Below, one piece after another: positions 4,961 to 26,322 of a stretch of 31,393 nucleotides of DNA (its first letter is position 1; each line of letters starts with the position of its first letter). A model generated the notes under the pieces. It was not told where the DNA came from, did not search any database, and worked only from the letters and a program-made list of their open reading frames with translations. Location: positions 1 through 31,393 of IMG/VR virus record IMGVR_UViG_3300042507_003904. The stretch is one strand, 5' to 3'. This stretch comes from a virus. Position numbers and translations under genes: made by a program.

Positions 4961-5023
4961 TTCAGTCTCCCGTATTTTGTTTCTTGTCGTGACATTTGCA
5001 CGATTTTTTTCGCTTGTAAACAT

Positions 5024-5056
5024 AAAAAAAGAGCGGCAACATAAAAATGTCGCCGC
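5024..5056 (-). terminator. Rho-independent terminator (leftward), left border of the 5174-6045 island
   Basis: GCGGC (5033-5037) pairs with GCCGC (5052-5056), and inside it ACAT pairs with ATGT around a short A-rich loop. On the minus strand the stem is followed by seven T residues (5024-5030 as A on the plus strand). It would stop leftward transcripts coming from the right. The downstream operon (4960 to 1) then needs its own promoter between here and 4960, and I see no convincing -10 there. Attenuation of that operon is an alternative. Confidence 0.65.
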
Positions 5057-5173
5057 CCAAGTTCGCCTCACGTCGGGAAAATGACAAAACCGGAAAGAGG
5101 CAGGGAGAACGATAACCATATCTTAACTTCTTGTGTGCTACAAGGGGACATCAACAACCAAAGGGAGATACCC

Positions 5174-5668
5174 ATGTTTATTTTTGCGAATCCTGAAATG
5201 CTACCAGAACAGCGCCTGTGGGCATCGCTGATTGATCAACTGATGCGAGATGCGTTCAAACTCAAACGCAACAAGCACAACTCTGATTTCAATTCCATTC
5301 AGCACGTTATTGATCAGGCTCACTCATGGTTCAGCATCCATAGCAAAGATTTTGTGATGGTTTGCGACATGGCCGGATATGATCCCAGCTTTGTGATGCG
5401 CGAATACCAAAAGGAGAAAAAGCGCACAGGGCGGGGCAACTGGCGTGACATCAAGACCGTTCGCAAGCACCTGCAACAAATCGGCGTTGCGACCATGCTT
5501 GCCTTGACTGTCTCGGCCTGTGCCACACAAAAGCCAGCGCCGCTACGGAGTGACGTAATGATTCCGGATGTTAAAGCCTGCATCGCGGAATATGACGAGA
5601 CGGGCTTTATCGGAACACGGGCAGAGTACCTTGCTGGATGCTATCGTTTTGCTACGGTGAGGTTTTAA
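5174..5668 (+). CDS. Phage protein with internal lipoprotein-type signal (possible fusion), 164 aa
   Basis: Residues 1-80 (EQRLWASLIDQLMRDAF ... SWFSIHSKDFVMVCDMAGYD, then PSFVMREY) resemble a short protein seen in many alphaproteobacterial phages (LW..vl.qAl.Da ... WL.s.DF..VC.lAG.DP); its role is unknown. After a basic stretch comes IGVATMLALTVSAC, a hydrophobic core ending in a good lipobox (VSAC, C116), then a 48-residue tail. A type II signal in mid-protein is odd: either two genes have fused in frame, or a lipoprotein starts internally at M75 (5396), which has only a weak ribosome site. The ATG at 5174 is supported by GGGAGA. The stop overlaps the next start (TAATG). The gene runs opposite to both flanking operons. 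Confidence 0.7.
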   Translation: MFIFANPEMLPEQRLWASLIDQLMRDAFKLKRNKHNSDFNSIQHVIDQAHSWFSIHSKDFVMVCDMAGYDPSFVMREYQKEKKRTGRGNWRDIKTVRKHLQQIGVATMLALTVSACATQKPAPLRSDVMIPDVKACIAEYDETGFIGTRAEYLAGCYRFATVRF

Positions 5669-6455: not shown

Positions 6456-6728
6456 TCAATCCCCCTTCGGCGTGCCGATTGCGGCATGGTTCCATTCTAA
6501 GAGTCTTTTGGCCCGTTCCAGCGTATCCTTGGCCTCCGTGTGCGAACAGGACGCCCGCAGGATGGAAACAATAGCCTCGGATAAAAACTTTTCTTTCATC
6601 TCTGATGGCAAATCCTCGGCCAGAAACCGTGTCGCTTCCCGCGCGAACAGGATCGCATCGTCTGCATGCACGATGCCCTCGATGTCGGCACTATCGATGC
6701 TTTTGCGGGTGATTTTCATGTAGCCCAT
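6456..6728 (-). CDS. Hypothetical helical protein, 90 aa
   Basis: The product is acidic and almost entirely helical (ADDAILFAREATRFLAEDLP ... ERAKRLLEWNHAA), with no motif I recognise. The ATG at 6728 follows AAGGGACATAAA; an in-frame ATG three codons later is possible. It lies one base from the VRR-NUC start, so it is probably co-translated with it. Its place in the replication arm suggests a partner role, but that is only context. Confidence 0.65.
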   Translation of the reverse strand: MGYMKITRKSIDSADIEGIVHADDAILFAREATRFLAEDLPSEMKEKFLSEAIVSILRASCSHTEAKDTLERAKRLLEWNHAAIGTPKGD

Positions 6729-6771
6729 TTTATGTCCCTTTTAGTCCGTTTAAATGTCTCATTATGTCCGT

Positions 6772-7026
6772 TTAAAACGGGATCCCGTCCCACATTGAGC
6801 AGCCACGCTGCCAAACATCATCCGGGATCTGAATCATCTCGCGCTTTTCACACTTTCCTTTGCGTTCATACATGCAGTCATAGCACGACTTTTCGCCCTT
6901 GATGCCCTGCAAATGGTCAGCCCACGCTTTGACCGTCCATGTGCCAATGTCAGGGTAAAAGTTCAAAATTTCCGCAGTCACTTTTTTCCAATTGTCCACG
7001 TCCCACTGCGTTGGCTTTTTGTCCAT
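6772..7026 (-). CDS. Small cysteine-rich protein, possible zinc binder, 84 aa
   Basis: The pattern is SCYDCMYERKGKC followed by a GC near the end: C47, C50, C58 and C75 could coordinate zinc (C-x2-C-x7-C-x16-C). The N-terminal half (DNWKKVTAEILNFYPDIGTW) is tryptophan-rich and helical. The ATG at 7026 lies inside the helicase gene, overlapping its last 77 bases in another frame. The same layout (Cys pair, basic loop, final GC and Trp) occurs in short phage proteins of unknown function. Confidence 0.7.
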   Translation of the reverse strand: MDKKPTQWDVDNWKKVTAEILNFYPDIGTWTVKAWADHLQGIKGEKSCYDCMYERKGKCEKREMIQIPDDVWQRGCSMWDGIPF

Positions 7027-8648: not shown

Positions 8649-9020
8649 TTAGAGTTTTGCGTTATTCAAATACGCACCGCTCAGATTAGCACCGCTCAGC
8701 GTAACACTGGTCAGATCAGCGTTGACCAGTAGAGCGCCGCGCAGATCGGCACTGGTCAGATTAGCGCCGCTCAGATTAGCACCGCGCAGATTGACCCCGC
8801 TCAAATCAGCGCCATTCAAATCGGAACCGCTCAGATCAGCGCCATTCAGATCGGCACCGCGCAAATTGGCTCCGGTCAGATCAGCGCCGCTCAGATTAAC
8901 GCCGCGCAGATCTGCATGGCGCAGATTGGCAGTGGTCAGATCGGCACGTTTCCCTTCAGCGTTCTCTTGCAGCCACAGTTTATGCAATCGCAGAATTTCA
9001 GTCAGTTGATCAAATGTCAT
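8649..9020 (-). CDS. Pentapeptide-repeat protein, 123 aa
   Basis: Residues 26-120 are 19 uninterrupted A(D/N)LxG-type pentapeptides, enough for nearly five coils of a right-handed quadrilateral beta-helix. The N-terminus [20 protein letters not shown] is the short helical cap seen on many phage members. Some relatives (Qnr, MfpA, McbG) mimic DNA and bind gyrase, but most phage members have no proven function; net charge here is modest, so DNA mimicry is only a possibility. The ATG at 9020 has AGGAGACAAAAC. The gene is bracketed by the identical 28-bp repeats at 8619 and 9039, as if it were a movable cassette in the replication operon. Confidence 0.92.
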
Positions 9021-10619: not shown

Positions 10620-10973
10620 TTAGATTTTCGCTTTGCGCAAATAATATTCAGATACAGACTCCGCAGCAGAAAAAAGGTTTTTTCCGTTTTGCTCTTTGAC
10701 GGTCAGAAAAAAATTCTTATTTAGCAATTGTGTTGCGCTTTGAATGATTTCCTGCCCGACAGCCCGAAAAATCGCACAAACATAAGCACGGAATTCGTCT
10801 CTATCCTTTCCAGTCAAGTTAAAATCCAAGGTGATTATTTCGCCTGTCCTTTCGCCCTTCTGAATCTTGAAAAACATTTTGGTAATCCAGTACCCATCCA
10901 GTTTGACATCATCACGATGCACAAACGAAACCTGATATGAGCCGCATGGAACGGGTTTTGATTCGTAAGTCAT
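10620..10973 (-). CDS. Second, diverged DUF669-like protein, 117 aa
   Basis: PVPCGSYQVSFVHRDDVKLD, then WITKMFFKIQKGERTGEIITLDFNLTG, follow the order seen in DUF669 (P.G.Y.v.iv...lk ... f.F.I..G...G..i...fnl). It lacks the Ala/Pro linker and acidic tail of the 9318-9827 protein. It is the first gene of the leftward replication operon, with GGGGGATC before the ATG at 10973. It could be a second ssDNA-binding protein or a modulator of the first. The call rests on pattern similarity only. Confidence 0.6.
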   Translation of the reverse strand: MTYESKPVPCGSYQVSFVHRDDVKLDGYWITKMFFKIQKGERTGEIITLDFNLTGKDRDEFRAYVCAIFRAVGQEIIQSATQLLNKNFFLTVKEQNGKNLFSAAESVSEYYLRKAKI

Positions 10974-11244: not shown

Positions 11245-13386
11245 ATGACTGTTTTTGCAAATTATGGCCGACGGCTCTGGGAGAGCGGCCTGTCGGTTAT
11301 CCCGTTGCGTTCGGGTGAAAAGATCCCGGCTGTCAGGGGGTGGCAAATCTACTGCCAGCGGCCAGCGGCAGAATCCGAGATTGACGAATGGGAGGGCGTT
11401 TACGGATCGGGCGGCATAGGCCTTTGCACCGGGCCAGCGTCCGGCATTGTGGCGCTCGATTTTGACGAAGATGTGGACGGCCTCCACGCCAAGATTAAAG
11501 CCAAGTTGCCGCCGTCGCCTGTGAGAAAGCGCGGCGCACGCGGCGAGACGTGGTTTTATAAAATCCGGGATGAACGCAACCGGAAATGGTCAAAAGATGG
11601 CAAGTGCGTTCTGGAATTACTCTCCATTGGGCGGCACACCGTCCTGCCGCCGTCGATCCATCCCGACACGCGCCAGCCATACACCTGGCTCACGCAAGAC
11701 ACCCTCGGCGATGTTGAGTTGCCGCTACTACCTGTGGATTTTGTCAAGGCGGTAGATGATCTCCTTGGCGTTACCCGCTTGATGCCACCAGTTAGATCAG
11801 ACTTACCACCGCCCGATGTGGAGGAAGTGCGCCGGGCGCTGGATCATATCAGCTGCGAGCCGTATCAAGACTGGGTGGATTGCGGCATGGCGCTGCATCA
11901 TGCGTTTGGCGATGCCGGGTTCCAGCTGTGGGATAACTGGTCAAGCCGGGGCAGCACATACAAGCCCGACGAAATGCCGCGCAAGTGGGCCAGCTTTGGC
12001 CGTTACAAGGGCCGGCCGATTGATATCGGAACCCTGTTTCATCATGCCATCGGGCAGGGGTGGTTGCCAACGCCGCCGGATGATGATGAGTTTGACGCCA
12101 GCGCCTTTATGGCGTCGGTCGAGGAACACGTTAGGGCCAAGCAATCCGGGCTGCCTGTGTGCATGTTGCGCGCCCCCGGCTATGTGGGGATGCTCAGGGA
12201 CTGGATTGAATCCACCAGCCGCCGGGAAACGCCGCTTCTATCTATGGCTGCTGCCATTGCCGGGGCCGGGGCCGTGTATGCTCATAAGATCCGCACTGAA
12301 ACGGATCTTAGAACCAACATGTACACCCTCGGCATTGCCGCATCAGGTACAGGCAAAGACCACGGGCGGCGGTGTCTGGATAGCCTCCTGAACGCCTGCG
12401 GTACAGAAGCGGCGGCCATGATGACGGGGAGTTTTTTCAGCGAGTCCGGGATCGTTATGGCGCTCCACAAAAGGCAGGGCCGGGCGCTGTCGATTATGGA
12501 CGAGATGGGAAAGGAGCTGGAAAAACTCACCCACCGCAATGCCACGGTGCAGTCCGAGGTTTTGACCACGCTCACCAAGCTGGCAACATCGGCCACAACG
12601 GCTTACCGGGGCCGAGAATATGCGGACGAAAAGATCGAGACAAAAGTGATTCAGGATCCATGCCTGTCGGTTTACGGGATGTCCGAGCCTGAGAGCTTTT
12701 TCGCGGCGCTGAAGAGCCGTGACGCATCGTCGGGATTCCTGCCCCGCTGGTTGTTGTTCCAATGCCCTGACGGCCTTCCCAAGCGGAAACAGGGCGGGTC
12801 TGTCGAGCAACCGCCTGCTGCGCTCCTGTCCATGACAAACCATATCCTGTCGGGCGGATTGAATCAGCCGACGCGGGACGATCCGTTTGCGGGGTTGCGG
12901 CCAGCCATTATCCCCATGACTGACGGCGCCCGCCGGATGTGGGAAGCGCTGGTGCTGGATATGGATGAACGGTGCGACACGGCGATCATTCACAAGACGG
13001 GCCTCCATGTCGTTTATGGCCGGGTTGCGGAACACGCAGCCAAGCTGGCGCTTCTGGCGCATGAATACGGCCAGATCAGTGAGGAGGCGATGGAATGGGG
13101 CCGGGATGTGGCGCTGTACTGTGCTGATGCCCTCGCCAAGGGTTTGGCGGAAAACGTCTCGGATACCGAGTGGGGGGGGTTTTTGAAGAAGCTTCTGGGA
13201 TACGTTCGCGAATCGGGCACGATCACGCACACGGCGCTTTTAAAAAAGTTCAATTCTGCCCGGCAGCGGGATTTTAAGGAGGCAATTATCCAGCTGATTG
13301 ATTCAGGAGAGCTTGACTACGACGAAAAAAAGGGTACAACTGGAAAAACCGTTAGATATTATAGAGTTAGATGCAGAGATAGTTAG
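11245..13386 (+). CDS. Primase-polymerase / PriCT / DUF3987-type helicase fusion, 713 aa
   Basis: Multi-domain replication initiator. Residues 1-175 form an archaeo-eukaryotic prim-pol domain: GKIPAVRGW-like start (EKIPAVRGWQ), catalytic DFD at 72-74 in GIVALDFDED, and conserved GRHTVLPPSIHP (129-140). Residues ~193-275 match PriCT-2 (VRRALDHISCEPYQDWVDCG ... W..W). From ~305 a DUF3987-like helicase/ATPase domain begins, with a P-loop ASGTGKD at 366-372 (Asp in place of Ser/Thr after the lysine). The last ~80 residues look like a winged-helix DNA-binding end (LLKKFNSARQRDFKEAIIQL). The gene lies directly upstream of the iteron-rich segment, its likely origin target. No separate phage DNA polymerase is seen, so the prim-pol domain or the host enzyme must do synthesis. 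Confidence 0.9.
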   Translation: MTVFANYGRRLWESGLSVIPLRSGEKIPAVRGWQIYCQRPAAESEIDEWEGVYGSGGIGLCTGPASGIVALDFDEDVDGLHAKIKAKLPPSPVRKRGARGETWFYKIRDERNRKWSKDGKCVLELLSIGRHTVLPPSIHPDTRQPYTWLTQDTLGDVELPLLPVDFVKAVDDLLGVTRLMPPVRSDLPPPDVEEVRRALDHISCEPYQDWVDCGMALHHAFGDAGFQLWDNWSSRGSTYKPDEMPRKWASFGRYKGRPIDIGTLFHHAIGQGWLPTPPDDDEFDASAFMASVEEHVRAKQSGLPVCMLRAPGYVGMLRDWIESTSRRETPLLSMAAAIAGAGAVYAHKIRTETDLRTNMYTLGIAASGTGKDHGRRCLDSLLNACGTEAAAMMTGSFFSESGIVMALHKRQGRALSIMDEMGKELEKLTHRNATVQSEVLTTLTKLATSATTAYRGREYADEKIETKVIQDPCLSVYGMSEPESFFAALKSRDASSGFLPRWLLFQCPDGLPKRKQGGSVEQPPAALLSMTNHILSGGLNQPTRDDPFAGLRPAIIPMTDGARRMWEALVLDMDERCDTAIIHKTGLHVVYGRVAEHAAKLALLAHEYGQISEEAMEWGRDVALYCADALAKGLAENVSDTEWGGFLKKLLGYVRESGTITHTALLKKFNSARQRDFKEAIIQLIDSGELDYDEKKGTTGKTVRYYRVRCRDS

Positions 13387-13388
13387 CA

Positions 13389-13655
13389 AGTTCGCAGATA
13401 GTTCGCGGATTCTTGCGAACTATCATCGCTTTGATATTTAACGGAAAAATCGGTTAGTTCGCAGTTCGCGCCACCCCCCCTTCCCCTCCGAAAGGAAAAA
13501 ATGGGAAGGGGGGGTATTGCTATGCGCGAACTAACCCTTTTTTATATATTATTTTTTTATTTTTTTTTATTTATTATCATATAGATAGAGTAGAAAACGG
13601 GGTGGGTGAGATAGTTCGCGGATTTCGCGCGAACTATCGCGAACTCGTCGAACTA
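13389..13655. other. Putative iteron-type replication origin (gene-free 13387-13709)
   Basis: Nine copies of the heptamer AGTTCGC lie in 257 bases: direct at 13389, 13400, 13456, 13463 and 13613; inverted at 13415, 13526, 13629 and 13639. A tenth, degenerate copy is at 13649. Two nearly identical palindromes, GATAGTTCGC/GCGAACTATC at 13397-13424 and 13610-13638, bracket the segment. Between them are a large cruciform (13452-13536) and an almost pure A+T run (about 13536-13592) that could be the unwinding element. There is no coding frame. Position after the primase/helicase gene and between convergent transcripts fits an origin. An alternative is a packaging or partition site. Confidence 0.65.
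13452..13536. repeat. Symmetric nested inverted repeat (cruciform)
   Basis: The outer arms are GGTTAGTTCGC (13452-13462) and its exact complement (13526-13536). The inner arms are ACCCCCCCTTCCC (13473-13485) and its exact complement (13503-13515). The outer and inner arms are separated by exactly ten bases on each side. The inner arms are a pure C/T strand opposite G/A, so slipped or triplex structure is also possible. The outer arms contain the origin heptamer. Confidence 0.85.
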
Positions 13656-13664
13656 TGCGGCCAT

Positions 13665-13690
13665 AAAAAACCCCGGCACAATGGCCGGGG
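13665..13690 (-). terminator. Rho-independent terminator of the leftward 15983-13710 genes
   Basis: CCCCGGC (13671-13677) pairs with GCCGGGG (13684-13690) around a six-base loop. On the minus strand it is followed by six T residues (13665-13670). It lies just after the stop at 13710 and keeps leftward transcription out of the origin-like segment. On the plus strand only TGTT follows, so it is weaker for rightward transcripts. Confidence 0.85.
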
Positions 13691-13709
13691 TGTTCTGGGG
13701 GTGGTGTTG

Positions 13710-13931
13710 CTATTTCCGTTTCCTCCCCGTCTCACGGGCCAGCCAGTCCAGCGTCTGATTGAGCCGGGTTTCCAGACGCTCGGCGGACATCTGGATCTGA
13801 AGCAAGTCGTCCTTGTGCAGAAGATCTACTTGATCAGGCAAAGCGTACATCCAGATTGCCATTCCCTCCAGATTGTTTAGCAGGCTGTTGCGGGTAAACT
13901 CACGGGATTGTTCAATTGCATTGTCATTCAT
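13710..13931 (-). CDS. Hypothetical helical protein, 73 aa
   Basis: The product is a helical protein (MNDNAIEQSREFTRNSLLNN ... LLQIQMSAERLETRLNQTLD), ending in a basic ARETGRKRK tail. No family recognised. The ATG at 13931 has GAGG at about 12 bases, slightly long spacing. It is the last gene before the terminator at 13665-13690. Confidence 0.6.
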   Translation of the reverse strand: MNDNAIEQSREFTRNSLLNNLEGMAIWMYALPDQVDLLHKDDLLQIQMSAERLETRLNQTLDWLARETGRKRK

Positions 13932-14007: not shown

Positions 14008-14028
14008 GAAAGCGCCAAAAACGCTTTC
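14008..14028 (-). other. Intergenic hairpin without T-tract
   Basis: GAAAGCG (14008-14014) is the exact complement of CGCTTTC (14022-14028), touching the TAG stop of the HTH gene. There is no run of T afterwards, so termination is doubtful. It is one of several hairpins following stop codons in this leftward block. The rest of 13932-14007 shows nothing I can name. Confidence 0.6.
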
Positions 14029-14237
14029 TAGGCCGTTTTTTCCAGCTTGTCGGTCTGGTTGGTCAGGATCAGGAACAGATGCCACGCTGCGCGGGGCATT
14101 CCGGTGCGTCCGGTTTCCCAGACGCTCCACTGCACAACATGGCAGGCGTGTACCATCTCGGCGGCCTGTTTTTGTGTCAAACCTGCGGTTTTACGGGCTT
14201 CGCGGATTTGATCTGGGGTGGGTTTCTGAATTCGCAT
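14028..14237 (-). CDS. HTH (XRE-like) regulator, 69 aa
   Basis: MRIQKPTPDQIREARKTAGL followed by TQKQAAEMVH is the first half of an XRE-type helix-turn-helix (TPxQIrxARkxAGLTQxqAA, residues 7-26). A recognition region VQWSVWETGRTGMPRAAWHLF follows, matching the small family with (W..WE.G...M....WelFl). Such proteins accompany many phages and plasmids and are thought to be transcriptional regulators. The ATG at 14237 (GAGAAAACCACC upstream) is preferred over an upstream frame running into the next gene. Its target could be the A-tract promoters at 15542 or 16028; that is inference only. Confidence 0.85.
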   Translation of the reverse strand: MRIQKPTPDQIREARKTAGLTQKQAAEMVHACHVVQWSVWETGRTGMPRAAWHLFLILTNQTDKLEKTA

Positions 14238-14284
14238 GGTGGTTTTCTCGGTTGGTGATTGATTCAGGGGAAGAAGGGGCGGGC

Positions 14285-14578
14285 CTAATCGGCCCACCGT
14301 CGCAACTTGTCATCCGGGTCGGCCTCGACCGTCATCGCCCAGGCCATGCCTTCCGGGTCGGAGGTATCGAATTTGACGCGGATTTCCGGATAGCTGCCCA
14401 GCTCATGACTCTGCCAATGCACGTCAACACTGCAACGGCTGTTAGGGACTGGATACGCCTGTTGGATCTGATGCGCAAAGCGCCGGGCTTCGGCTGCGAG
14501 CGTAAATTTATCATCCCGGCCAACCTGAGCGCCGGATTCCTCCCAAGGGCAGGGGTCAAGCTCAAAATAATCTCGCAT
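14285..14578 (-). CDS. Conserved phage protein of unknown function, 97 aa
   Basis: The sequence begins MRDYFELDPCPWEESGAQVG, followed by RDD, helical basic residues, then SVDVHWQSHELGSYPEIRVK. I recognise the layout (YFELdP.P..E.cAQVG ... hd.G.Y.e..v.yd) from small accessory proteins of proteobacterial phages whose role is unknown. The ATG at 14578 follows GGGAGACCACC. The TAG stop sits in a small GGGCC/GGCCC hairpin (14281-14295). Confidence 0.75.
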   Translation of the reverse strand: MRDYFELDPCPWEESGAQVGRDDKFTLAAEARRFAHQIQQAYPVPNSRCSVDVHWQSHELGSYPEIRVKFDTSDPEGMAWAMTVEADPDDKLRRWAD

Positions 14579-16144: not shown

Positions 16145-16543
16145 ATGCCAGCAGGCAGGCCAACAAAATACGATCCCGCAATGGTGGATAAAGTTGTGCC
16201 TTTTCTTTCGCAGGGCTACAGCCTGATGGGATTGGCGGGGCATTTGGGTATTGCTTTGGACACGCTCTATCGCTGGCAAAAGGACTATCCTGAATTTTCG
16301 GAAGCCATAAAGGCAGGTCAAACGGCCTCGGGCTTGTGGTGGGAAGAGCTTGCTCGCCGCAACGCGGCAACAGGCGAAGGTAACGCAACGCTTTGTGTCT
16401 TTGGCCTTAAAAACCGCGCCCGCACGGAATGGGCAGATGTTCGCCAGCTTGATCACACGTCCAGCGACCGATCTATGTCGCCGCAAGCCGCCTCGGATGC
16501 CGTTCTTGAGGCTGTGGCGCTTGGCAAGACGCCCGATGCATGA
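16145..16543 (+). CDS. terS: Terminase small subunit, 132 aa
   Basis: TerS recognises the packaging site and loads the large subunit. The N-terminus (GRPTKYDPAMVDKVVPFLSQ, then GYSLMGLAGHLGIALDTLYRW) is the typical helix-turn-helix of phage TerS. WQKDYPEFSEAIKAGQT and the following helices form the oligomerisation region. An optimal AGGAGG precedes the ATG at 16145. The stop overlaps the TerL start (ATGA). It opens the rightward late operon; a weak promoter-like TTGCGC...TTAAAT at about 16097-16124 may serve it. Confidence 0.92.
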   Translation: MPAGRPTKYDPAMVDKVVPFLSQGYSLMGLAGHLGIALDTLYRWQKDYPEFSEAIKAGQTASGLWWEELARRNAATGEGNATLCVFGLKNRARTEWADVRQLDHTSSDRSMSPQAASDAVLEAVALGKTPDA

Positions 16544-17997
16544 CACCCCAAGAAGCCGCCGTTGAGCTGCTGACACGGCGCAGGGCGCGGCGTAGCTATC
16601 TCGACTATCTCGGCATTGCCTCGACTGAGGGCCAACCTGCTGCACATCATCGCCTGATGATTGAGCGCCTGCAGGCCGTTGCTGATGGGCAGTGTAAGCG
16701 CTTGATGCTGTTCCTGCCGCCCGGTTCGGCAAAGAGCTATTATGGCAACGTGATGTTTGCCGCATGGTGGATGGGGCGCAATCCAAGGGGCCAACTGTTA
16801 ACAGCCAGCTATGGGCAGGAAGTGGCGGACAAATGGGGCCGCCGTGTCAAAAGCGTGATCCGTACCCCTGAACACCAGCGGGTTTTTGGCGGGCATGAAA
16901 TCAGCAGATCCAGCGATGCCGCTGGCCGCTGGGCCACGACAACGGGCGGCGAGTATTATGCCGTTGGCGCTGGTGGTGCTATCACGTCGTACCGCGCCGA
17001 TATTGCCATTATTGATGATCCGATCAAGGGCCGCGAAGAGGCGGACAGCGCCACAATCAAAGCGAAGCTGCGCGAATGGTACAAGAGCGACTTTTGGACT
17101 CGTCTCAAACCTAACGCGCCCGTGGTGCTCATTATGACACGCTGGGCCGATGATGACCTTGCCGGGTGGCTGCTGGATGAAGCGCAAGCGGGTGGTGAAC
17201 AGTGGGATGTGGTGTCTGTGCCGATGGAGGCCGGGCCGAATGATCCACTCGGACGTGCGCCCGGCGAGCGCCTCTGGGCGGATTGGTTCACGGAAGACAT
17301 GGTGCGTGAGGCCAAACGTGACCGCCGTCGCTGGTCGGCCCTGTACCAACAGACGCCTGCGCCGGATGAGGGGATTCAGTTCCGTGGCAATTGGTTCCCA
17401 CGGTTCCGTCTCGGCGATGAGCCGAAAGAGCTACGCTATTATATGGCCAGTGATTTTGCCGTCACCCCTGACGCTGGCGACTACACAGAGCACGGCGTTT
17501 TTGGCCTCGATCCACAAGGCCGCTGGTGGCTGGTGGACTGGTGGAGCGGCCATACGACGCCAGACATCTGGATAGACCGCGCCTGTGACCTGATAGCCCG
17601 CTGGCGTCCCATGCTTTGGGCGGCTGAGGCGGGCGTTATCCGCCGCGCCGTTGAGCCGTTCCTCATGCGCCGGATGCAGGAACGCCGGACGTACTGCAAA
17701 ATAGAGTGGGTTCCGTCGATTAGTGACAAGCCCACACGGGCTAGGTCGTTTGAGGCCCGCGCCGCAATGCAGATGGTTAACTTGCCGCGTACAGAATGGG
17801 CAGACAGGCTGCTTGATCAATTGTTGCGCTTTCCAGCAGGTAAGCATGACGACGCTGTTGACGTGTGTAGTTTAATGGCGCTGGCGCTTGACAGTATGCC
17901 AGCCGCGCCTTATCCTGCGGAAGAAATAAAACCGCGCCGTGTCATGCGTTGGGACAAAGAGCCTGACGATGATTTAGACAGTTGGAGGACGCTATAG
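16540..17997 (+). CDS. terL: Terminase large subunit, 485 aa
   Basis: The packaging motor and headful/cos nuclease. ATPase domain: P-loop LPPGSAKSYY (59-68; the variant without the usual RxxGKT, common in one TerL branch), then WWMGRNPRGQLLTASYGQEV, and Walker B with acidic pair AIIDDP (156-161). Then comes VLIMTRWADDDLAGW, the coupling motif. Nuclease domain: first Asp in YYMASDFAVTPDAGDYTEHG, later D/E residues in AAEAGVI, and the C-terminal KHDDAVDVCSLMA. Length is normal. The ATG at 16540 overlaps terS, and the next gene starts directly after the stop. Confidence 0.96.
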   Translation: MTPQEAAVELLTRRRARRSYLDYLGIASTEGQPAAHHRLMIERLQAVADGQCKRLMLFLPPGSAKSYYGNVMFAAWWMGRNPRGQLLTASYGQEVADKWGRRVKSVIRTPEHQRVFGGHEISRSSDAAGRWATTTGGEYYAVGAGGAITSYRADIAIIDDPIKGREEADSATIKAKLREWYKSDFWTRLKPNAPVVLIMTRWADDDLAGWLLDEAQAGGEQWDVVSVPMEAGPNDPLGRAPGERLWADWFTEDMVREAKRDRRRWSALYQQTPAPDEGIQFRGNWFPRFRLGDEPKELRYYMASDFAVTPDAGDYTEHGVFGLDPQGRWWLVDWWSGHTTPDIWIDRACDLIARWRPMLWAAEAGVIRRAVEPFLMRRMQERRTYCKIEWVPSISDKPTRARSFEARAAMQMVNLPRTEWADRLLDQLLRFPAGKHDDAVDVCSLMALALDSMPAAPYPAEEIKPRRVMRWDKEPDDDLDSWRTL

Positions 17998-18309
17998 ATG
18001 CCTATTACTGCAAATCATTTGCGCACGGCGATGACGGTTTCGTTTACTGGCGCAACGACCTCTGACGAAATGCCAGTGCCGCGCGGTTATTTCTTTGTGA
18101 AGATCAAAGGCGGTTCTGGCACTGTCGTGCTTGATCGTTATGACGTAGCGCAAGCTGAATGGGACATTGCAGACACTTTCACCGCTGACACCGCCAAAAA
18201 TTTTTATGAGGCTGTCGGCAACACGGCGTACCGCCTCCGCTGCACCACATACACAAGCGGCACCATTAAAGGCACGATTGCCGCTCCTGCCGTGCAGGTG
18301 CCCGTTTGA
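17998..18309 (+). CDS. Hypothetical virion-region protein, 103 aa
   Basis: The product is short and beta-rich (VSFTGATTSDEMPVPRGYFF, VKIKGGSGTVVLDRYDVAQA), ending in repetitive Thr/Val/Ala strands. No signal or membrane segment is seen. It sits between terL and the portal gene with zero spacing on one side and a TGATG overlap on the other, so it is co-expressed with them. It could be a small head-decoration or portal-associated protein; nothing in the sequence proves it. Confidence 0.75.
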   Translation: MPITANHLRTAMTVSFTGATTSDEMPVPRGYFFVKIKGGSGTVVLDRYDVAQAEWDIADTFTADTAKNFYEAVGNTAYRLRCTTYTSGTIKGTIAAPAVQVPV

Positions 18310-20138
18310 TGAAGCAGGATGATCTCGACAAGCTGCTGAAATGGTACGATGATGCCGATGAAGCGTCATTGGATGCCCGCAAAAACTCGGAGCGGGATCG
18401 GGATTATTATGACGGGTATCAATGGACGGATGACGAAATCGAGACGATGACAAAGCGCGGGCAACCGCCTATCGTCGTCAACCGCATTCGCCGCAAGATT
18501 AACTATGTGCTGGGCTATGAACAGCGCCTGCGCACTGACCCGCGCGCAATGCCGCGAACGCCCAAGCATGAAGAAGCCGCCAAAGCTGCAACGGATGCTC
18601 TCAGGTATATTGTCGAGACGAACCGCTTTGACCGCCTGAAATCATCCGTGTTTGCCAACATGGTTGTTGAGGGTTTTGGTGGTTGCGAGATCAGCCTGAA
18701 GCAGGGCCGTGACGGGATCGACATCATTCTCAAGCATGTTCATTGGGATCGGCTGTTTTACGACCCGCACAGCCGGGAGCGTGATTTTAGTGACGCTCGG
18801 TATGTTGGCACGGTGACATGGATCGACGAGGCGCTTCTGCGGGCGCAATTCCCGAACAAGAAGAACGTCATTGATTTTACTGGTCTTGGCAACAAAAGCC
18901 TTGGTGAGACCTACGACGACAAGCCGCGCCGCTGGTGGACGACGGAACGCCGCGACCGGATGAAGGTCGTTGCGATTTTCTACCGTGACCCCGGCAAAGG
19001 CTGGATGCACGCAATCTTTACCGATGGCGGGTTTCTGAAAGACCCTGAGCCGATTCCGTATCAGGATGAGGACGGCGCCAATTGGTGTCCGCTCATTATG
19101 CAATCCGCTTATGTGGATCGCGACAACATGCGCTACGGAGAAGTGCGTGAGCTGATCGGGTTGCAGGACGAGATCAACAAGCGGCGCTCGAAGGCGCTGC
19201 ATTTGATGACGATGCGGCAGGTGGTGATGGAGGAAGGCGCGGTTCGAGATGTAAACGCCGCCCGCAAACAGCTGAGCCGCGCTGATGGTGTAATTGAGGT
19301 TGCACCTGGGTTGCGCTTTGAGATTTTGCCCACTGGCGATATGGCGCAGGGCCAGTTTGAATTACTTGCTGAGGCCAAAAACGAGATTGATCTGTCGGGC
19401 GCAAACGCTGCCTTGATGGGTAAGGATCAGTTGGGTTTGAGCGGCAAGGCCATTCAGGCGCAGCAACAGGGCGGCGCAACGGAATTGCAACCTTTGATGG
19501 ATGCATTGCGCGACTGGCATTTGACCGTGTTGCGCCGTTGCTGGCAGTTGGTGCGCCAGTATTGGACAGAAGAACGCTGGGTTCGCGTTACCGATGACGA
19601 AAACAACCTGCGCTTTGTGGGTCTGAATCGTCCTGTGACCGCTGGCGAGATGTTGCAACAGCGATTCCAGCAATTGCCGCCGGAAGAGCAACAGGCGCGG
19701 GCGCAAGAGCTGCAAATGGCAATGCAAGACCCGCGTGCGCAAGAGGTTGTGGACACCGAGAACGATGTCGCTGAGCTGGATGTAGATATCTACATTGAGG
19801 AACAACCAGACATTATCAGCTTGCAATCGGAACAGTTCGAGCAGCTGGCACAAATGGCAGGCGCTGGCGTGCCGATCCCGCCGGATGTGCTGATTGAGGC
19901 GTCCAGCCTGCGCAATAAAAAGCAGCTTCTTGACATGATGCGTCAAGGGCAGGGCGCTCCTGATCCACGGGCGGAAGCGGAAGCCCGCCAACTGGAATCC
20001 GAAACAATCAAAAACGAATCACAGGCACAGCTTAACCTTGCCAAGGCAGGCCAGACCCAAGTGGGCAGCCGTCTTGATGTGGCACAAGCGATGATGCCGC
20101 AACAGACACTCCCGCAAGGAGTTACCGCCGCCGGGTAA
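18309..20138 (+). CDS. Portal protein (P22-like), 609 aa
   Basis: The dodecameric head vertex through which DNA is packaged and ejected. Features of the P22-type portal family are an N-terminal RDYYDGYQWTDDEIETMTKR, GQPPIVVNRIRRKINYVLGYE (the family's strongly conserved N.i...i....G), HWDRLFYDPHSRERDFSDAR, and a QDEINKRRSKALHLMT segment followed by SGANAALMGKDQLGLSGKAI. The C-terminal ~120 residues are Gln/Glu-rich and helical, like the barrel helix. The ATG at 18309 is preferred over a TTG codon one position upstream. Length is a little shorter than P22 gp1. Confidence 0.93.
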   Translation: MKQDDLDKLLKWYDDADEASLDARKNSERDRDYYDGYQWTDDEIETMTKRGQPPIVVNRIRRKINYVLGYEQRLRTDPRAMPRTPKHEEAAKAATDALRYIVETNRFDRLKSSVFANMVVEGFGGCEISLKQGRDGIDIILKHVHWDRLFYDPHSRERDFSDARYVGTVTWIDEALLRAQFPNKKNVIDFTGLGNKSLGETYDDKPRRWWTTERRDRMKVVAIFYRDPGKGWMHAIFTDGGFLKDPEPIPYQDEDGANWCPLIMQSAYVDRDNMRYGEVRELIGLQDEINKRRSKALHLMTMRQVVMEEGAVRDVNAARKQLSRADGVIEVAPGLRFEILPTGDMAQGQFELLAEAKNEIDLSGANAALMGKDQLGLSGKAIQAQQQGGATELQPLMDALRDWHLTVLRRCWQLVRQYWTEERWVRVTDDENNLRFVGLNRPVTAGEMLQQRFQQLPPEEQQARAQELQMAMQDPRAQEVVDTENDVAELDVDIYIEEQPDIISLQSEQFEQLAQMAGAGVPIPPDVLIEASSLRNKKQLLDMMRQGQGAPDPRAEAEARQLESETIKNESQAQLNLAKAGQTQVGSRLDVAQAMMPQQTLPQGVTAAG

Positions 20139-20185
20139 TCGGGCGATCTGGCCGCCGCAGCACGGGCGATAAAGGATAAACGACC

Positions 20186-20920
20186 ATGAGCAACGGACTT
20201 GAAAACCTTTACGAAGCACTGACCGGGACAGAAGTTGAGGCTGAAAAGCCGGGAACGGAAGAACAGGAACAGCCGGAAGTAAAGGATGAGGGCGTTAAAG
20301 AAGATGCCGCGCCGCCTGCGGAATCACAAGCACCAACTGCAAAAGATGAGCGTTTCATCCCGATCAATGCACTTTTGGACGAGCGCGAAAAACGTCAACG
20401 TCTTGAGGCCGAACTGGCGCAGCTGAAGGCGCAAGCCCAACCTGCGAAAGAGGACACCACCGAGGATGATCTTTTCAGCAATCCAGCTGAAGTTCTGAAA
20501 CGGGTGCAAATGGAAGCGTATGCGGCAGCTCGCCGGGATATGATTAACATGTCCGAGGCGATTCTGTTTGAGACGAAACCGGATGCACAAGAAAAGATCG
20601 ACGCTTTTAAAGAGGCGATTCAACAGAATCCGTCGCTTTACCAGCAGATGATTCACAGTCCGAATCCAGCCGGATTTGCCTATCAGGAAGGCGCAAAGTT
20701 TCTGAGCGTGAAAGCTATACCAACAGATATGGCGAAGTACGAACAGGAACTGCGGGCCAAGATTGAGGCAGAATTGGCAGTCAAGTACGGCCAAAAAGGC
20801 GGGAAACTTCCTTCGTCCATCCCGACAACACTTTCCGATGTTCCAAACGTCAAGCCGGATACTGATGAAGCTTCGGATGCGTTGGACATTGGAGCAATCC
20901 TTAAAGCCGCCAGACGATAG
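20186..20920 (+). CDS. Scaffolding protein, 244 aa
   Basis: The position between portal and coat and the composition identify it: an acidic, Pro/Glu-rich N-terminus (EQEQPEVKDEGVKEDAAPPA), a coiled coil at residues ~65-95 (DEREKRQRLEAELAQLKAQA), a helical middle, and a short C-terminal ILKAARR, the kind of basic helix that binds coat protein. AAAGGA precedes the ATG at 20186. It would guide procapsid assembly and then leave. No protease domain is seen. Confidence 0.85.
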   Translation: MSNGLENLYEALTGTEVEAEKPGTEEQEQPEVKDEGVKEDAAPPAESQAPTAKDERFIPINALLDEREKRQRLEAELAQLKAQAQPAKEDTTEDDLFSNPAEVLKRVQMEAYAAARRDMINMSEAILFETKPDAQEKIDAFKEAIQQNPSLYQQMIHSPNPAGFAYQEGAKFLSVKAIPTDMAKYEQELRAKIEAELAVKYGQKGGKLPSSIPTTLSDVPNVKPDTDEASDALDIGAILKAARR

Positions 20921-20928
20921 GAGTCATT

Positions 20929-22014
20929 ATGGCAGAATCTAGGGCCGCGACGGGCCTGACCGTCCAACGCTGGGACAGTAATTTCTTTACCCAGTATTTG
21001 CAGGAAAACCGTTTCAAGTCCTACATGGGGACTGACACGAACAGCATCATCCAGCTAAACAACGATCTGCGCAATGCCAAGGGCAAAACTGTTACGTTTG
21101 CTCTCGCCAACAAGCTGATTGGGGCTGGTGTTACCGGTTCGGCTACGCTTGAGGGTGCAGAGGAAGACCTGCGCACTCGTTCGTTTACGGTAAACGTGAA
21201 CAAGCGGCGTCATGCGGTGATCGTGCCGGAAATCGAGGAACAGTACAGCGCAATCAGCCTGCGCGATGCTGGCCGCGAAGTCCTGATGGACTGGATGATG
21301 GAAAACGTGCGGGATCGGATCATTGCCGCTCTCGGCTCCATCGACGGCGTTGCTTATGCTTCTGCCACGGCTGCACAACGCAACACATGGCTCACCAACA
21401 ACAGTGACCGTGTATTGTATGGTAACGCCAAAGGGAACAGCTCCTCGCTGGTTCATGCCACGGCGCTTGCCAACGTTGACAACACCAACGACAAGCTGAC
21501 GACCGCCAGCATTGACCTGATGAAGCGGATGGCTCTTGAGGCATCGCCCAAAATTCGCCCGATTCGTGTTGGCAATGACACCCGTTCGTTCGTGCTGTTC
21601 TGCGGCACGCGCACGTTCCGGGATCTGAAGCGGGATACGACCCTGATGCAGGCACAGCGTGACGCTCTGCCGCGCAGCAAGGATAACCCGCTGTTCCGTG
21701 GTGGTGACCTTCTGTGGGATAACGTTGTGATTCACGAGATCGACGACATCCCGGTTTATACGGGTGTTGGTGCGGGCAGTATCGACGTTTCGCCTGTGTA
21801 TTTCTGCGGTGCGCAAGCTCTGGCGTATGCCATCAGCAAACCGACCTACACGATCACGGACGACCGCGATTATGAGGACAAGAAGGGCGTTTCCGTCAAC
21901 ATCATTGATGGTGTTGAGAAAATGCGTTTCGGCACTTCGTCCACCACCGATACTGGCAACACAAAAGACAATGGTCTGCTGACCGGGTTCTTTGCCGCTG
22001 TCGCTGACGCTTAA
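20929..22014 (+). CDS. Major capsid protein, N4-gp56 family, 361 aa
   Basis: The main coat subunit. The N-terminal VQRWDSNFFTQYLQENRFKS, then GTDTNSIIQ and LNNDLRNAKGKTVTFALANK, and RRHAVIVPEIEEQYSAISLR are typical of the N4 gp56-type HK97-fold capsid family. Further on, VLFCGTRTFRDLKRDTTLMQ and DIPVYTGVGAGS also fit. Length (361) is near the family norm. Strong AGGAGTCATT precedes the ATG at 20929. Scaffold upstream and decoration-like genes downstream support it. High expression is expected. Confidence 0.93.
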   Translation: MAESRAATGLTVQRWDSNFFTQYLQENRFKSYMGTDTNSIIQLNNDLRNAKGKTVTFALANKLIGAGVTGSATLEGAEEDLRTRSFTVNVNKRRHAVIVPEIEEQYSAISLRDAGREVLMDWMMENVRDRIIAALGSIDGVAYASATAAQRNTWLTNNSDRVLYGNAKGNSSSLVHATALANVDNTNDKLTTASIDLMKRMALEASPKIRPIRVGNDTRSFVLFCGTRTFRDLKRDTTLMQAQRDALPRSKDNPLFRGGDLLWDNVVIHEIDDIPVYTGVGAGSIDVSPVYFCGAQALAYAISKPTYTITDDRDYEDKKGVSVNIIDGVEKMRFGTSSTTDTGNTKDNGLLTGFFAAVADA

Positions 22015-22027
22015 GGAGTATTGAATT

Positions 22028-22501
22028 ATGCCTACTTTTACAGCAGCACAAGCCGTTTCCACCTTTCCTGTTTATGAAAGCGTGGGGCGCGGGCTGAAGC
22101 ATACCGCATTCGGTGTGATTCAGCTGACAAGTAACGTTGCTCCGGCTGATATTCTGCAATTCTGCTGGATTCCGGCAAATGCAACCGTCATCGGTGGCCG
22201 TTTCCGTGGAACTGATCTTGACACCAATGCCACTGCCACGCTCGATATTGATATCGGCTGGGCGGCAAATGGTGTTGAGGTTGCCGATACGGATGGTTTT
22301 GGTAACTTTGGCGTTATCAATGGTTCGGCTGTGACCAACTATTTGCCCGAAGGTGGCTTTGCGCTTCCGCTGGCGGGTGTTCTGGCAACCGGGCCTGTCA
22401 CCTTCACCAACAAAACCCTTATCACTGGCGTTGTAAACGCGGCAGCAGCCACGTTTGCCGCTGGCACGATCTGGGTTGAAGTTGATTATGTGGTGGCGTA
22501 A
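22028..22501 (+). CDS. Capsid-adjacent beta-rich protein, 157 aa (possible decoration protein)
   Basis: The product is almost entirely beta-strand-forming: LKHTAFGVIQLTSNVAPADI, LQFCWIPANATVIGGRFRGT, DLDTNATATLDIDIGWAANG, and a hydrophobic TIWVEVDYVV end. This layout is common in phage proteins directly after the coat gene and suggests a jelly-roll or beta-sandwich decoration or cement protein. No sequence signature proves it. AAGGAG lies upstream of the ATG at 22028. The stop overlaps the next start (TAATG). Confidence 0.8.
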   Translation: MPTFTAAQAVSTFPVYESVGRGLKHTAFGVIQLTSNVAPADILQFCWIPANATVIGGRFRGTDLDTNATATLDIDIGWAANGVEVADTDGFGNFGVINGSAVTNYLPEGGFALPLAGVLATGPVTFTNKTLITGVVNAAAATFAAGTIWVEVDYVVA

Positions 22502-22767
22502 TGCCGTCATTCCTGTATCGGGGTGAATATCCCGAAAAGGGATTTGTTGATGTGTATGGCGTGGCGTTTCATCCTGAGACGCCCGCCAACATCACAGACC
22601 CTTTTGCTGTCGCCAAGCTGCGCGGCAACCGTTTCTTTGTTGAGGTAGATCATGGCAACGCTGACGAAAGCGGACATACGCAACCGGGTGTTGCAGAGAA
22701 TGCGGGTTCTGGGGCAGGGGCAGACAGCCAGCGCCGAAGAGGCCGCCCACGTCGATCAACACATTGA
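22501..22767 (+). CDS. Small protein with basic GRP tail, 88 aa
   Basis: Residues 1-50 (MPSFLYRGEYPEKGFVDVYG, VAFHPETPANITDPFAVAKL, RGNRFFVEVD) resemble the short beta-rich proteins found between coat and head-completion genes, where a FxxG(V)xF...D...a.KL.gN.~F pattern is frequent. The tail ends QRRRGRPRRSTH, an AT-hook-like GRP motif that could contact DNA. The last 116 bases overlap the next gene in another frame, so the tail is encoded inside it. The ATG at 22501 overlaps the previous stop. Confidence 0.7.
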   Translation: MPSFLYRGEYPEKGFVDVYGVAFHPETPANITDPFAVAKLRGNRFFVEVDHGNADESGHTQPGVAENAGSGAGADSQRRRGRPRRSTH

Positions 22768-23005
22768 ATTGTTGCATAGCGAGCTTGCCGCCCGTGGTCT
22801 GGCTCAAATCGGCACGCTGACATGGACTGTAGATGCGATTCCGGATATTGTGGCAGAGGCTTATACAGCTATGGCGGCGTTCCGTGCGTCACCATTGTTC
22901 GGGCGGCAAACCACTTATGATGAATACACCTTTGGCGAACACCTGTTGCGCCGTGTGGCAAAAGCGCCAGTGGATGAAGACCCGATAAAGGCAACGTATT
23001 ACTAA
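22652..23005 (+). CDS. Head-completion protein, P22 gp4-like, 117 aa
   Basis: A helical protein with MATLTKADIRNRVLQRMRVL, AAHVDQHIELLHSELAARGL, DIVAEAYTAMAAFRASPLFG and GEHLLRRVAKAP. Helical adaptors that bind below the portal in P22-like phages (gp4 type) have this pattern, and the next gene is the gp10 homologue, the same order as in P22. It is shorter than P22 gp4, so the call is partly from context. GAGG precedes the ATG at 22652. It overlaps the 88-residue gene by 116 bases. Confidence 0.75.
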   Translation: MATLTKADIRNRVLQRMRVLGQGQTASAEEAAHVDQHIELLHSELAARGLAQIGTLTWTVDAIPDIVAEAYTAMAAFRASPLFGRQTTYDEYTFGEHLLRRVAKAPVDEDPIKATYY

Positions 23006-24408
23006 TGGTAAACATACCTCTTCCATCAGCGTACGGTAAAGGCGAATCACTGCGCTTTGATGCATCACGGCTGGTGAATTTTGAGGCTATTCCGGCGTCT
23101 GGTCAAACAGCAAGAAGTGCGTTTTATCTCACTGCCTCGCCGGGACTGAAACGATTCAGCACCCTTGGTACTGGGCTTTACACGACACGCGGTCTGATGC
23201 AGATGGGCGGCGTGCTGTATGCGGTAAATGGCACAAGCCTTTATCGTGTGGATCAATTTGGTGTCGAAACATCCCTTGGGACGGTGGCTGGTTCTTTACC
23301 CGTCACAATGGCAAAGATTGGGCGCGAACTGGTAATTTGCGCTGATACTTTAAGTTATGTATGGAACGCACAAACCAGCACATTTAGCACTATTACAGAC
23401 CCTGATTTTTATGTTGCTGATGCTGTGACGGGCCAGAATCAACGAGTGATTTTTAACCGCCGGGGAACGGGGCAGTTTTTTTGGTCTGATACTTTAGCGG
23501 CAACAGTTTATGACGGTTTGAATCTACAAACAGCAGAAGCAAACGATGATAACCTTGTTGCGCCGTTTGCCGCTTACGATGATTTGTGGTTGTTTGGGCA
23601 GGAAACCATCGAGGTTGCCCGCGAAGCGGTTGACGGATTCTACGACCGCATTCCCGGCGCAGTTCTGGATGTGGGGCTGGCGAGTAAGTTGGCCGTTACC
23701 CGTTTGGGAAATGCCGTTTATTGGCTGGGCCATGATGGTGTAGTGTACGGCGCCGCAGGATACTCGCCGCAACCTATCAGCACGTTTGCTATTTCAGATG
23801 AGATTGCAAGCCTGAGCAGAATCACAGATGCTATAATGTGGGGCTATTCCACCAATGGGCACAAATATATTGTTCTGACGTTTCCATTTGCACAACGCAC
23901 GTTTGTTTATGATGTTGGCGTGGGATCGTGGCATGAACGGTCAAGCTATGGCGTGGGGCAATGGCGGGGACTGAATTACGCCTATTGCTACGGTAAGCAT
24001 ATCGTTGGGGCGCTGAATGAGGGCGGACTGTATGAGATTCGCCGGGATGTGTATGACGAAGACGGCACCGAAATTCGCCGCATCATTGATATGGGATTCA
24101 TTGCCGACGGCGTGAACAGCTTCACCATTGATCGGGTTGAATTGGTGCTTGATACTGGTTTGGGTGGAACGGCTACAGGGACAGACACAGACCCTATTGT
24201 TAGCCTTTCATGGAGCAATGACGGCGGACGCACATTCAGCACACCGTTGCAGGCGTCTGCGGGGTTATTGGGTAACTATCAGCAAAAAGTAGTTTGGCGG
24301 CGTTTGGGGCAATTTCACATGGATGCCATGTTGCGGGTTGAAGTATCGAGCAAAACCCCCTGGCGCATTGTGGCGGCTGATGCTATTCTTGAAGGGCGCG
24401 GTGTATGA
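23005..24408 (+). CDS. Packaged-DNA stabilisation protein, P22 gp10-like, 467 aa
   Basis: Hexameric tail-hub protein that closes the head after packaging. MVNIPLPSAYGKGESLRFDA, SRLVNFEAIPASGQTARSAF, YLTASPGLKRF and GLYTTRGLMQMGGVLYAVNG are the standard opening of gp10-type proteins. A beta-propeller-like middle follows (VAPFAAYDDLWLFGQETIEV, WLGHDGVVYGAAGYSPQPIS). The ending, a jelly-roll-like WRIVAADAILEGRG, is also typical. The length is close to P22 gp10. Start and stop overlap both neighbours (TAATG, ATGA). Confidence 0.93.
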   Translation: MVNIPLPSAYGKGESLRFDASRLVNFEAIPASGQTARSAFYLTASPGLKRFSTLGTGLYTTRGLMQMGGVLYAVNGTSLYRVDQFGVETSLGTVAGSLPVTMAKIGRELVICADTLSYVWNAQTSTFSTITDPDFYVADAVTGQNQRVIFNRRGTGQFFWSDTLAATVYDGLNLQTAEANDDNLVAPFAAYDDLWLFGQETIEVAREAVDGFYDRIPGAVLDVGLASKLAVTRLGNAVYWLGHDGVVYGAAGYSPQPISTFAISDEIASLSRITDAIMWGYSTNGHKYIVLTFPFAQRTFVYDVGVGSWHERSSYGVGQWRGLNYAYCYGKHIVGALNEGGLYEIRRDVYDEDGTEIRRIIDMGFIADGVNSFTIDRVELVLDTGLGGTATGTDTDPIVSLSWSNDGGRTFSTPLQASAGLLGNYQQKVVWRRLGQFHMDAMLRVEVSSKTPWRIVAADAILEGRGV

Positions 24409-24944
24409 TCCCCCGTGAATTGCATAACCTAACGCAAGACCGCAGCCTGATTGATCGCCTGTGGTATAAGTTCTTTGCGGATTTTTGGGCACGGTTTGAT
24501 CGGCGTGAGCAACGGCCTGTTGTCGGGCAGATGTACATGCACAACAATGCTACCGCCACGGTGATTACCGACACCACCACGTTTGTAAAGATTGCAGGCA
24601 CTACGGTTGCAGGAAGCCATAATAATCAATACAATCACACCAATGGACGGCTGACAAATGCAGCAACGTATCGGCGTAGATTCAAGGTTTCAGTTACTGG
24701 TACGATGATTGCCCATCAGCATGATTACATTGAATTTGGTGTGTATGATAGTGCAATTGGGGCAGTGCAGGTTGATTCAAGGATGAAAATGTATATCCAC
24801 CACGGCACAGACCCGATTCTTTTTAGCACCGATGCAATCGTGAATCATGGGATTGGGGATTACATCGAAGTGCATTTGCGTGATACAACATCAATCCAGA
24901 ATGTGACAGTTGAACGGTTAAACGTAGTGGTGACGGAGATATAG
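24405..24944 (+). CDS. Hypothetical tail-associated protein with jelly-roll-like C-terminus, 179 aa
   Basis: A short helical N-terminus (SLIDRLWYKFFADFWARFDR, residues 14-33) is followed by ~130 residues of beta strands (YMHNNATATVITDTTTFVKI, RRRFKVSVTGTMIAHQHDYI, DYIEVHLRDTTSIQNVTVER). The C-terminal part looks like a TNF/BclA-type jelly roll, as used at the tips of tail needles and receptor-binding proteins. In P22 the gene after gp10 encodes the tail needle gp26, so a needle or plug function is possible. The long coiled coil of gp26 is missing. Function uncertain. Confidence 0.75.
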   Translation: MIPRELHNLTQDRSLIDRLWYKFFADFWARFDRREQRPVVGQMYMHNNATATVITDTTTFVKIAGTTVAGSHNNQYNHTNGRLTNAATYRRRFKVSVTGTMIAHQHDYIEFGVYDSAIGAVQVDSRMKMYIHHGTDPILFSTDAIVNHGIGDYIEVHLRDTTSIQNVTVERLNVVVTEI

Positions 24945-24945
24945 C

Positions 24946-26322
24946 ATGCCGAAATGGGGCGATTTTTTCAAAAATCCAGTCAAAGCTGTTGCCAAAACAG
25001 TTTCTAATGTCGTTAAGGATCCCCTTGGCGAAATTAAAAACGCAGTTAGCACGGGTGGCGTTCCACTTGCTCTAGCTGGATCACTTTTGATTCCCGGCGT
25101 TGGATCGGCCATTACGGGTGGGTTAAGCTCAGCATTGGGAAGTGTTGGGTCTGCCTTAGGCCTTGGTGGTACGGCAGCAGGCGCGGCGGGTGGCATCGGT
25201 GGCCTCGGAGGCTTAGGTGGTTCTCTGTTATCTCCCGCTTTGGCGGCTGGAAGTGCAAGCGCGGTTACGCCCGGTTTTTTAAGTACGCTTCTTGCAAGCC
25301 CTTCCTTGGCAACAGGTGCGCTTTCCCTTGGTAGCGGCGCGCTCGGCAATGTACTAACTGGACTTGCTGGAACAACGGCATTGAGTGGAAGCCCCACAAC
25401 CGGATTGCTTGGCGGGCTTTTGGGCGGCGGCGGAACAGGAGCAGGGCAACAAAGCGCACTCGGTAGCATTGGGCAACTTTTGGGTTTAGGTGGTGGAACA
25501 GCTGGCGGCGGCCTTGGCGGGTTACTTGGCGGCCTATCCGCACAAGACCTTCTGATCGGTGGCGGATCACTGGCATCATCCATCTACGGCGCTAACGTGG
25601 CAGAGAAGGCCGCACAATCGCAACGTGAGGCCATTGATAACGCCATTGCATCGTTGCGCCAAGGACAAGAGCAAGCCCGTGGCGATATCGGCACGGGCGC
25701 TCAGGAAGCCGCTGGATTCTTGGGGCAGCAGCCCGCAGAGATTCAAGCCGCACAACAAGCCGCAGCCGGGTATCTTGATCCCTTTTATCAAGCTGGCACA
25801 GCGGGCCTTGGCCAGCTTCAACAGCTTGCTATGGGGCAGGGTGTGCCTGAATTCCTTGCTGCGAATCCGGCGTACCAGTTCCGCCAGCAAGAGGCACAGA
25901 AGGCGCTTGAACGTTCTGCGGCGGCTCGTGGCGGCCTGTTGTCGGGGCAATTTGCCAAGGCGCTGCAAGAGCGCTCGCAGGGCCTTGCAAGCGAAGAATT
26001 TGGCAATGCTTTCAACCGCCTTTCCGGTGTTGTCGGCATGGGCCAGCAAGTTGGGCAGCAGCTTTCCAGCTTGCGTGAACGCACAGGCGAACGGATGCTG
26101 ACTAATATTGGAGCGCAGGCCGGATTGCGGCAACAGGCAGGCACGCAACGTGCCGGGATCGGCCAGCAATTTGCGGGCAGCTTGGCAGACCTGATGCGTT
26201 CCCGTGGTGATGCTGTGGCCACTGGACAAATCGGGCAGGCCAACGCATACAATCAAGGGCTGGCAAACCTGACGCAATACGTCACAGCGCCCAAATATCG
26301 CTTTGCAGGGGTAGGTGCATAA
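24946..26322 (+). CDS. DNA-transfer/ejection protein, P22 gp7-like, 458 aa
   Basis: N-terminal FKNPVKAVAKTV, then a long Gly/Ala/Leu-rich hydrophobic region (residues ~40-215) that could insert into membrane. A Gln-rich helical half follows, containing YLDPFYQAGTAGLGQLQQLA, NPAYQFRQQEAQKALERSAA and ARGGLLSGQFAKALQERSQG. The last motif is a hallmark of phage DNA-transfer proteins of the gp7/gp14 type. Such proteins leave the virion first and help form a channel through the host envelope. The place in the operon (after gp10) fits. The stop overlaps the next start. Confidence 0.85.
   Translation: MPKWGDFFKNPVKAVAKTVSNVVKDPLGEIKNAVSTGGVPLALAGSLLIPGVGSAITGGLSSALGSVGSALGLGGTAAGAAGGIGGLGGLGGSLLSPALAAGSASAVTPGFLSTLLASPSLATGALSLGSGALGNVLTGLAGTTALSGSPTTGLLGGLLGGGGTGAGQQSALGSIGQLLGLGGGTAGGGLGGLLGGLSAQDLLIGGGSLASSIYGANVAEKAAQSQREAIDNAIASLRQGQEQARGDIGTGAQEAAGFLGQQPAEIQAAQQAAAGYLDPFYQAGTAGLGQLQQLAMGQGVPEFLAANPAYQFRQQEAQKALERSAAARGGLLSGQFAKALQERSQGLASEEFGNAFNRLSGVVGMGQQVGQQLSSLRERTGERMLTNIGAQAGLRQQAGTQRAGIGQQFAGSLADLMRSRGDAVATGQIGQANAYNQGLANLTQYVTAPKYRFAGVGA

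Follow-up and report, generated by a model that had tools for sequence, protein, structure and literature searches.

Two groups of mobile elements offer the closest described counterpart to the DNA studied here. In phage-inducible chromosomal islands and Staphylococcus aureus pathogenicity islands (PICI/SaPI), the origin follows immediately downstream of the initiator gene. An A+T-rich region there lies between two groups of short iterons, the repeated words differ from element to element, and Rep recognises the origin through its C-terminal domain. This layout is functional and experimentally supported (PMC6092414, PMC7581432). Here we describe a similar arrangement in the IMG/VR virus record IMGVR_UViG_3300042507_003904, which has 31,393 bases, is classed as without end repeats, and is called the window throughout. 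Comparison of related sequences makes it very probable that positions 13389-13656 are the replication origin of this phage, that the adjacent primase reads the heptamer AGTTCGC via its winged helix, and that the word belongs with the winged helix in one matched cassette. Like the islands, the window has its candidate origin immediately downstream of the initiator gene and two short-iteron sets around an A+T-rich region, and its relatives carry differing words. It departs from them in its initiator, a Prim-Pol/PriCT-2/DUF3987 protein, and in a large C/G-rich hairpin between the iteron sets. In contrast to a PICI satellite, it encodes the small and large terminase subunits (TerS and TerL), a portal and a major head protein.

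Other systems share single traits with this locus. ORF904 of pRN1 is also a Prim-Pol initiator with a C-terminal winged helix, an origin 3' of the gene and a large stem-loop (PMC4234260). However, pRN1 has a superfamily 3 (SF3) helicase where the window has a DUF3987 region, and it lacks iterons, whereas the window has nine words co-varying with the winged helix. For phage proteins with a Prim-Pol domain and a winged helix, the proposed recognition target is a stem-loop on the 3' side of the encoding gene (PMC4234260). In the window a stem-loop and iterons occur together, and it is the iterons that the co-variation suggests as the address. The alpha protein of P4 likewise unites primase, helicase and an origin-repeat-binding winged helix (summarised in PMC4234260), but its primase is of the TOPRIM type and that of the window of the archaeo-eukaryotic type. 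The RepA_N/ori system of PICI-like element (PLE) satellites differs in its N-terminal RepA_N domain, its iterons of ~30 bp and its unrelated protein family (PMC8263062). The winged helices of primases such as the one in the window have been suggested as possible origin recognisers (PMC5862659), an idea to which the present sequence comparison lends concrete support. A literature search, with most subscription papers outside its reach, found no report of such a layout for such phages.

The nine AGTTCGC copies occupy both strands within 257 bases (13389-13645), as the preliminary description of this DNA had noted, and form the densest 7-mer cluster of the window, in keeping with its claim that this is the strongest non-coding structure present. 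Three near-copies with one mismatch lie at 13381, 13622 and 13648. The heptamer occurs 12 times in the whole window against 4.5 expected, and when the whole window was shuffled 60 times with dinucleotides preserved, the count never exceeded 4 per 300 bp, which rules out a chance origin of the cluster. The first copy begins 3 bases past the primase stop codon at 13386, and a coding repeat is likewise ruled out, the cluster lying past that codon. Five words stand to the left of an 87% A+T run, three to its right and one at the edge. The two palindromes (10-bp arms on the left, 11-bp arms on the right) are exact and, as described earlier, bracket a potential cruciform and the A+T run. The former is an imperfect inverted repeat (13445-13485 and 13503-13543; 41 nt, 78% complementary), the latter spans 63 bp. 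Folded as single-stranded DNA, the segment was far more stable than its shuffles (z = -7.45).

Comparison with relatives carries the argument that this segment is an origin. Six relatives of the primase were found among viral contigs, five of which extend to the region 3' of the gene. In three of these (L003, L004 and L005; 97-98% identical), every one of the nine words is retained in register. In the other two the word is replaced, at both sides: L006 has seven copies of CGTGTAC, and L008 has AGTGTGGC, with eight copies of its GCCACAC core. The conservation of the heptamer anticipated in the preliminary description thus holds for three relatives and fails for two, and this failure is the most informative outcome because the copies of the heptamer are replaced all together. 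L006 and L008 retain the A/T core, the terminator and a C/G-rich stem; such a stem is common to all five relatives and has a differing sequence in these two. The alignment bin (50 columns) holding the A/T core is 90% (L006) and 88% (L008) identical to the window and 98% identical between the two, while several iteron bins fall to 33-60%. L003 has the word of the window yet only 60% identity in the A/T-core bin, so that A/T core and word change independently.

The replaced word is accompanied by a replaced winged helix. Residues 1-646 of the L006 primase share 97.4% identity with the protein of the window, the winged-helix part 57.1%; the corresponding values for L008 are 94.0% (116 core residues available) and 57.8%. 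In same-word relatives the winged-helix part is 97-100% identical. None of the other tested neighbours changes with the word. Sak4 is 98% identical in every contig that holds it. A 73-aa protein (13710-13931) is 93% identical in different-word contigs versus 54-56% in L014 and L017, which share the word of the window, and a helix-turn-helix (HTH) protein (14028-14297) 83-91% versus 58-74%. TerS is 76% identical in different-word L060 versus 66% and 83% in same-word L014 and L003. Since these proteins do not follow the word, the primase winged helix is singled out as its likely reader, and readings of the repeats as packaging or repressor sites are weakened. From this co-variation we infer that the primase binds the word. 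In the modelled recognition helix, L006 and L008, whose words share GTGT, have KRRDFQEA, and the window, with GTTC, has RQRDFKEA; a residue-to-base link across these three sequences is possible. A scan with the C-terminal half of the primase returned no relatives beyond the known contigs, and a scan of genome contigs with the primase gave a single weak and irrelevant match, an Akkermansia locus encoding a different protein.

Pfam places Prim-Pol (PF09250) at residues 11-157 of the 713-aa primase, PriCT-2 at 196-268 and DUF3987 at 451-623. AlphaFold2 models and Foldseek indicate a C-terminal winged helix at about residues 642-708, modelled as H-E-H-H-E-E with a block predicted local distance difference test (pLDDT) score of 76-93. 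Its alignments to the winged helices of PadR, MarR-type and TFIIE proteins reach a probability of 1.00, with E-values >0.01. The full-length model is too poor (mean pLDDT 42.7), the C-terminal domain excepted. The best PDB sequence match of the primase is ORF904, at a weak E of 0.06. Pfam found no SF3 family in this protein, the region in question matching DUF3987 with a model too poor to compare; nor did it find a TOPRIM-type primase domain, Prim-Pol being found instead, or a RepA_N domain. We assume that the DUF3987 region acts as a helicase, given its P-loop-like GIAASGTGK motif and the family context.

Replication could begin as follows. The primase would recognise the AGTTCGC iterons via its C-terminal winged helix and assemble on both iteron sets. 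Its ATPase region may then open the A+T core and/or extrude the C/G-rich hairpin between the sets, the Prim-Pol domain would lay the first primer, and host or phage enzymes would take over. Among close relatives, word and winged helix would change as one unit. We infer melting, priming and replication direction at the segment, the steps after binding being drawn from SaPI Rep (PMC7581432) and, for P4 alpha as well as the pRN1 model, from PMC4234260. The features involved are listed in Table 1.

Table 1. Features of the proposed origin and its initiator gene in the window
Feature	Position	Strand	Basis or remark
Primase gene (713 aa), proposed initiator	11245-13386	+	Pfam
Codons of residues 647-713, winged-helix part	13183-13383	+	Sole gene part diverging in other-word relatives
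Left iteron set	13389-13469		AGTTCGC at 13389+, 13400+, 13415-, 13456+, 13463+
Left palindrome, GATAGTTCGC-8-GCGAACTATC	13397-13424		Inverted-repeat search
Large hairpin/cruciform	13445-13543		Inverted word pair as base, C/G-rich stem within; inverted repeat and folds
AGTTCGC copy closing the hairpin, adjoins A+T run	13526-13532	-	
A+T-rich stretch, proposed strand-opening site	13534-13596		87% A+T; bin 88-90% identical to other-word relatives
Right iteron set	13610-13656		AGTTCGC at 13613+, 13629-, 13639-; one-mismatch copy 13648-; holds palindrome 13610-13638
Terminator-like hairpin, predicted to halt leftward transcription ahead of the repeats	13670-13691	-	

Similar arrays occur at more distant primase loci. 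The primases of Rhizobium/Sinorhizobium phages and related contigs are ~25% identical to that of the window and have iterons 3' of the gene. Their words, assigned by eye with the help of counts, include TTGGAATT (L098, L102, L118), CTGTTGCAA (L119, L123), GAGCGTGCA (L120), TTCATTGCAA (L121) and others; at L123, L127 and L129 the exact 7-mer count is not above shuffles. L102 and L121 present a comparable swap, with different words, 92.9% identity in the primase core, 65.7% in the winged helix, and backbone blocks in common, among them TCTATCTCTTT and GGAATGAATAATAG. At L116 and L117 a cluster of AATTCCA, of the TTGGAATT type, lies 1.34-1.56 kb 3' of the primase gene (about 6697-6914), so that genes have seemingly been inserted between initiator and origin. 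In the Synechococcus phages Ssp-JY40 and Yong-M3-232, the word AACCGAC occurs nine times, at +388 to +606. In Vibrio phage 1.164 (L111, 1384-1651), ten GAAAAAT copies flank an A/T run upstream of the Prim-Pol gene, and a similar origin may therefore lie 5' in that group. Klebsiella phage 6991 (L112, about 5010-5320) has six GACTTTA copies (AGACTTTAG), separated by C-rich runs, 780-1080 bp downstream of its Prim-Pol gene. With a threshold of at least 6 copies within 350 bp, inside 700 bp 3' of the gene, clusters were found at 12 of 40 primase loci versus one of 156 control tiles, that tile being the Vibrio phage array. As the 40 loci are related, these counts are not independent.

Several observations weigh against an origin read by the winged helix. 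The cumulative GC-skew minimum, expected at the repeats by the preliminary description, lies instead at 10932, ~2.5 kb upstream, and there is no skew change at the repeats. Winged-helix divergence does not always bring a new word: L102 and L118 share the TTGGAATT core despite winged helices 62% identical, and L130 and L131 share TTTATTGCAA at 59%. About half of the 40 loci have no significant 3' cluster at the stringency of the survey. The sample is also limited, with five window-family relatives covering the region and 116 core residues available from L008. The in-register conservation, the joint change of word and winged helix and the PICI/SaPI-like layout nevertheless support the candidate origin put forward in the preliminary description.

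On another reading the segment is an origin, but it is the large stem-loop that the protein recognises, in line with proposals made for pRN1 and phage BIP-1, and the words are secondary. The hairpin exists, a C/G-rich stem persists in every relative covering the region, and pRN1 depends on a stem-loop downstream of its Prim-Pol gene (PMC4234260). Nonetheless we regard this as improbable, because the words outside the hairpin (13389-13421 and 13613-13645) change along with those inside and with the winged helix, which recognition of structure alone would not need, and iterons are present at many distant loci. A role of the repeats as operators for a regulator such as the nearby repressor-like HTH protein, or as a partition or copy-control site, would fit the inverted orientation of some copies, and copy-control iterons such as P4 crr look similar. 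We give this very little credence: the HTH protein is better conserved where the word differs than where it is shared, and the cluster lies between convergent gene ends rather than ahead of any gene. A promoter scan of the region gave a count no higher than chance expectation. The placement between convergent genes and beside the primase gene agrees with the preliminary description, but the terminator shielding it proposed is one-sided, since a terminator-like hairpin faces the leftward genes and the stretch from the primase gene to the repeats yielded no such site.

The preliminary description had itself raised TerS cleavage at a packaging (pac) site here as an alternative, in which case the segment would be recognised by TerS. 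Pac sites may contain repeats, and the phage encodes both terminase subunits and has no end repeats. Yet TerS identity does not track the word, the site is 2.5 kb from terS and adjoins the primase gene, and like clusters follow primase genes in unrelated phages, which leaves this reading hardly credible. A structured RNA was rejected, Rfam giving no match anywhere in the window. Across viral contigs, the palindrome ATAGTTCGC-N(0-20)-GCGAACTAT occurs in 16 stretches, as isolated matches only, known relatives aside. The A/T-core string occurs in 75, and a close primase relative is encoded in the known relatives only, so that the string alone is not diagnostic.

As to the phage itself, its TerL is 43-48% identical to those of the Pseudanabaena phages Pam1 and Pan3 and of phage CBW1004C-Prop1. 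The structural module (16145-31174) resembles Pam1 and CBW1004C-Prop1, which are annotated with replication genes of other types. Elsewhere in the window, six CCGCTCA and five GATCTGA copies (8677-8893) lie inside a coding sequence on the minus strand (8649-9020), whose protein matches PHROG families of unknown function, for example phrog_7713 and phrog_923.

It is an even call whether many tailed phages with Prim-Pol/DUF3987 initiators use a PICI-type iteron origin, with word and winged helix exchanged as a paired specificity cassette, a code between winged-helix residues and 7-10 bp words readable from sequence, and turnover perhaps driven by phage incompatibility or origin-targeting enemies. 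In PLE satellites, matched changes in the initiator DNA-binding domain and the origin permit escape from an origin-cutting nuclease (PMC8263062), and a similar escape is one possible cause of word turnover here. This primase type is common but has been little characterised; in phages that have it, origins would become locatable by sequence analysis, and the probable reading domain could be named. The layout was earlier described as unique to PICI satellites; that phages encoding structural proteins of their own have it too is relevant to the source of satellite replicons. Close relatives with the same protein, another winged helix and another word are natural swap pairs, which makes initiator-origin specificity directly testable.
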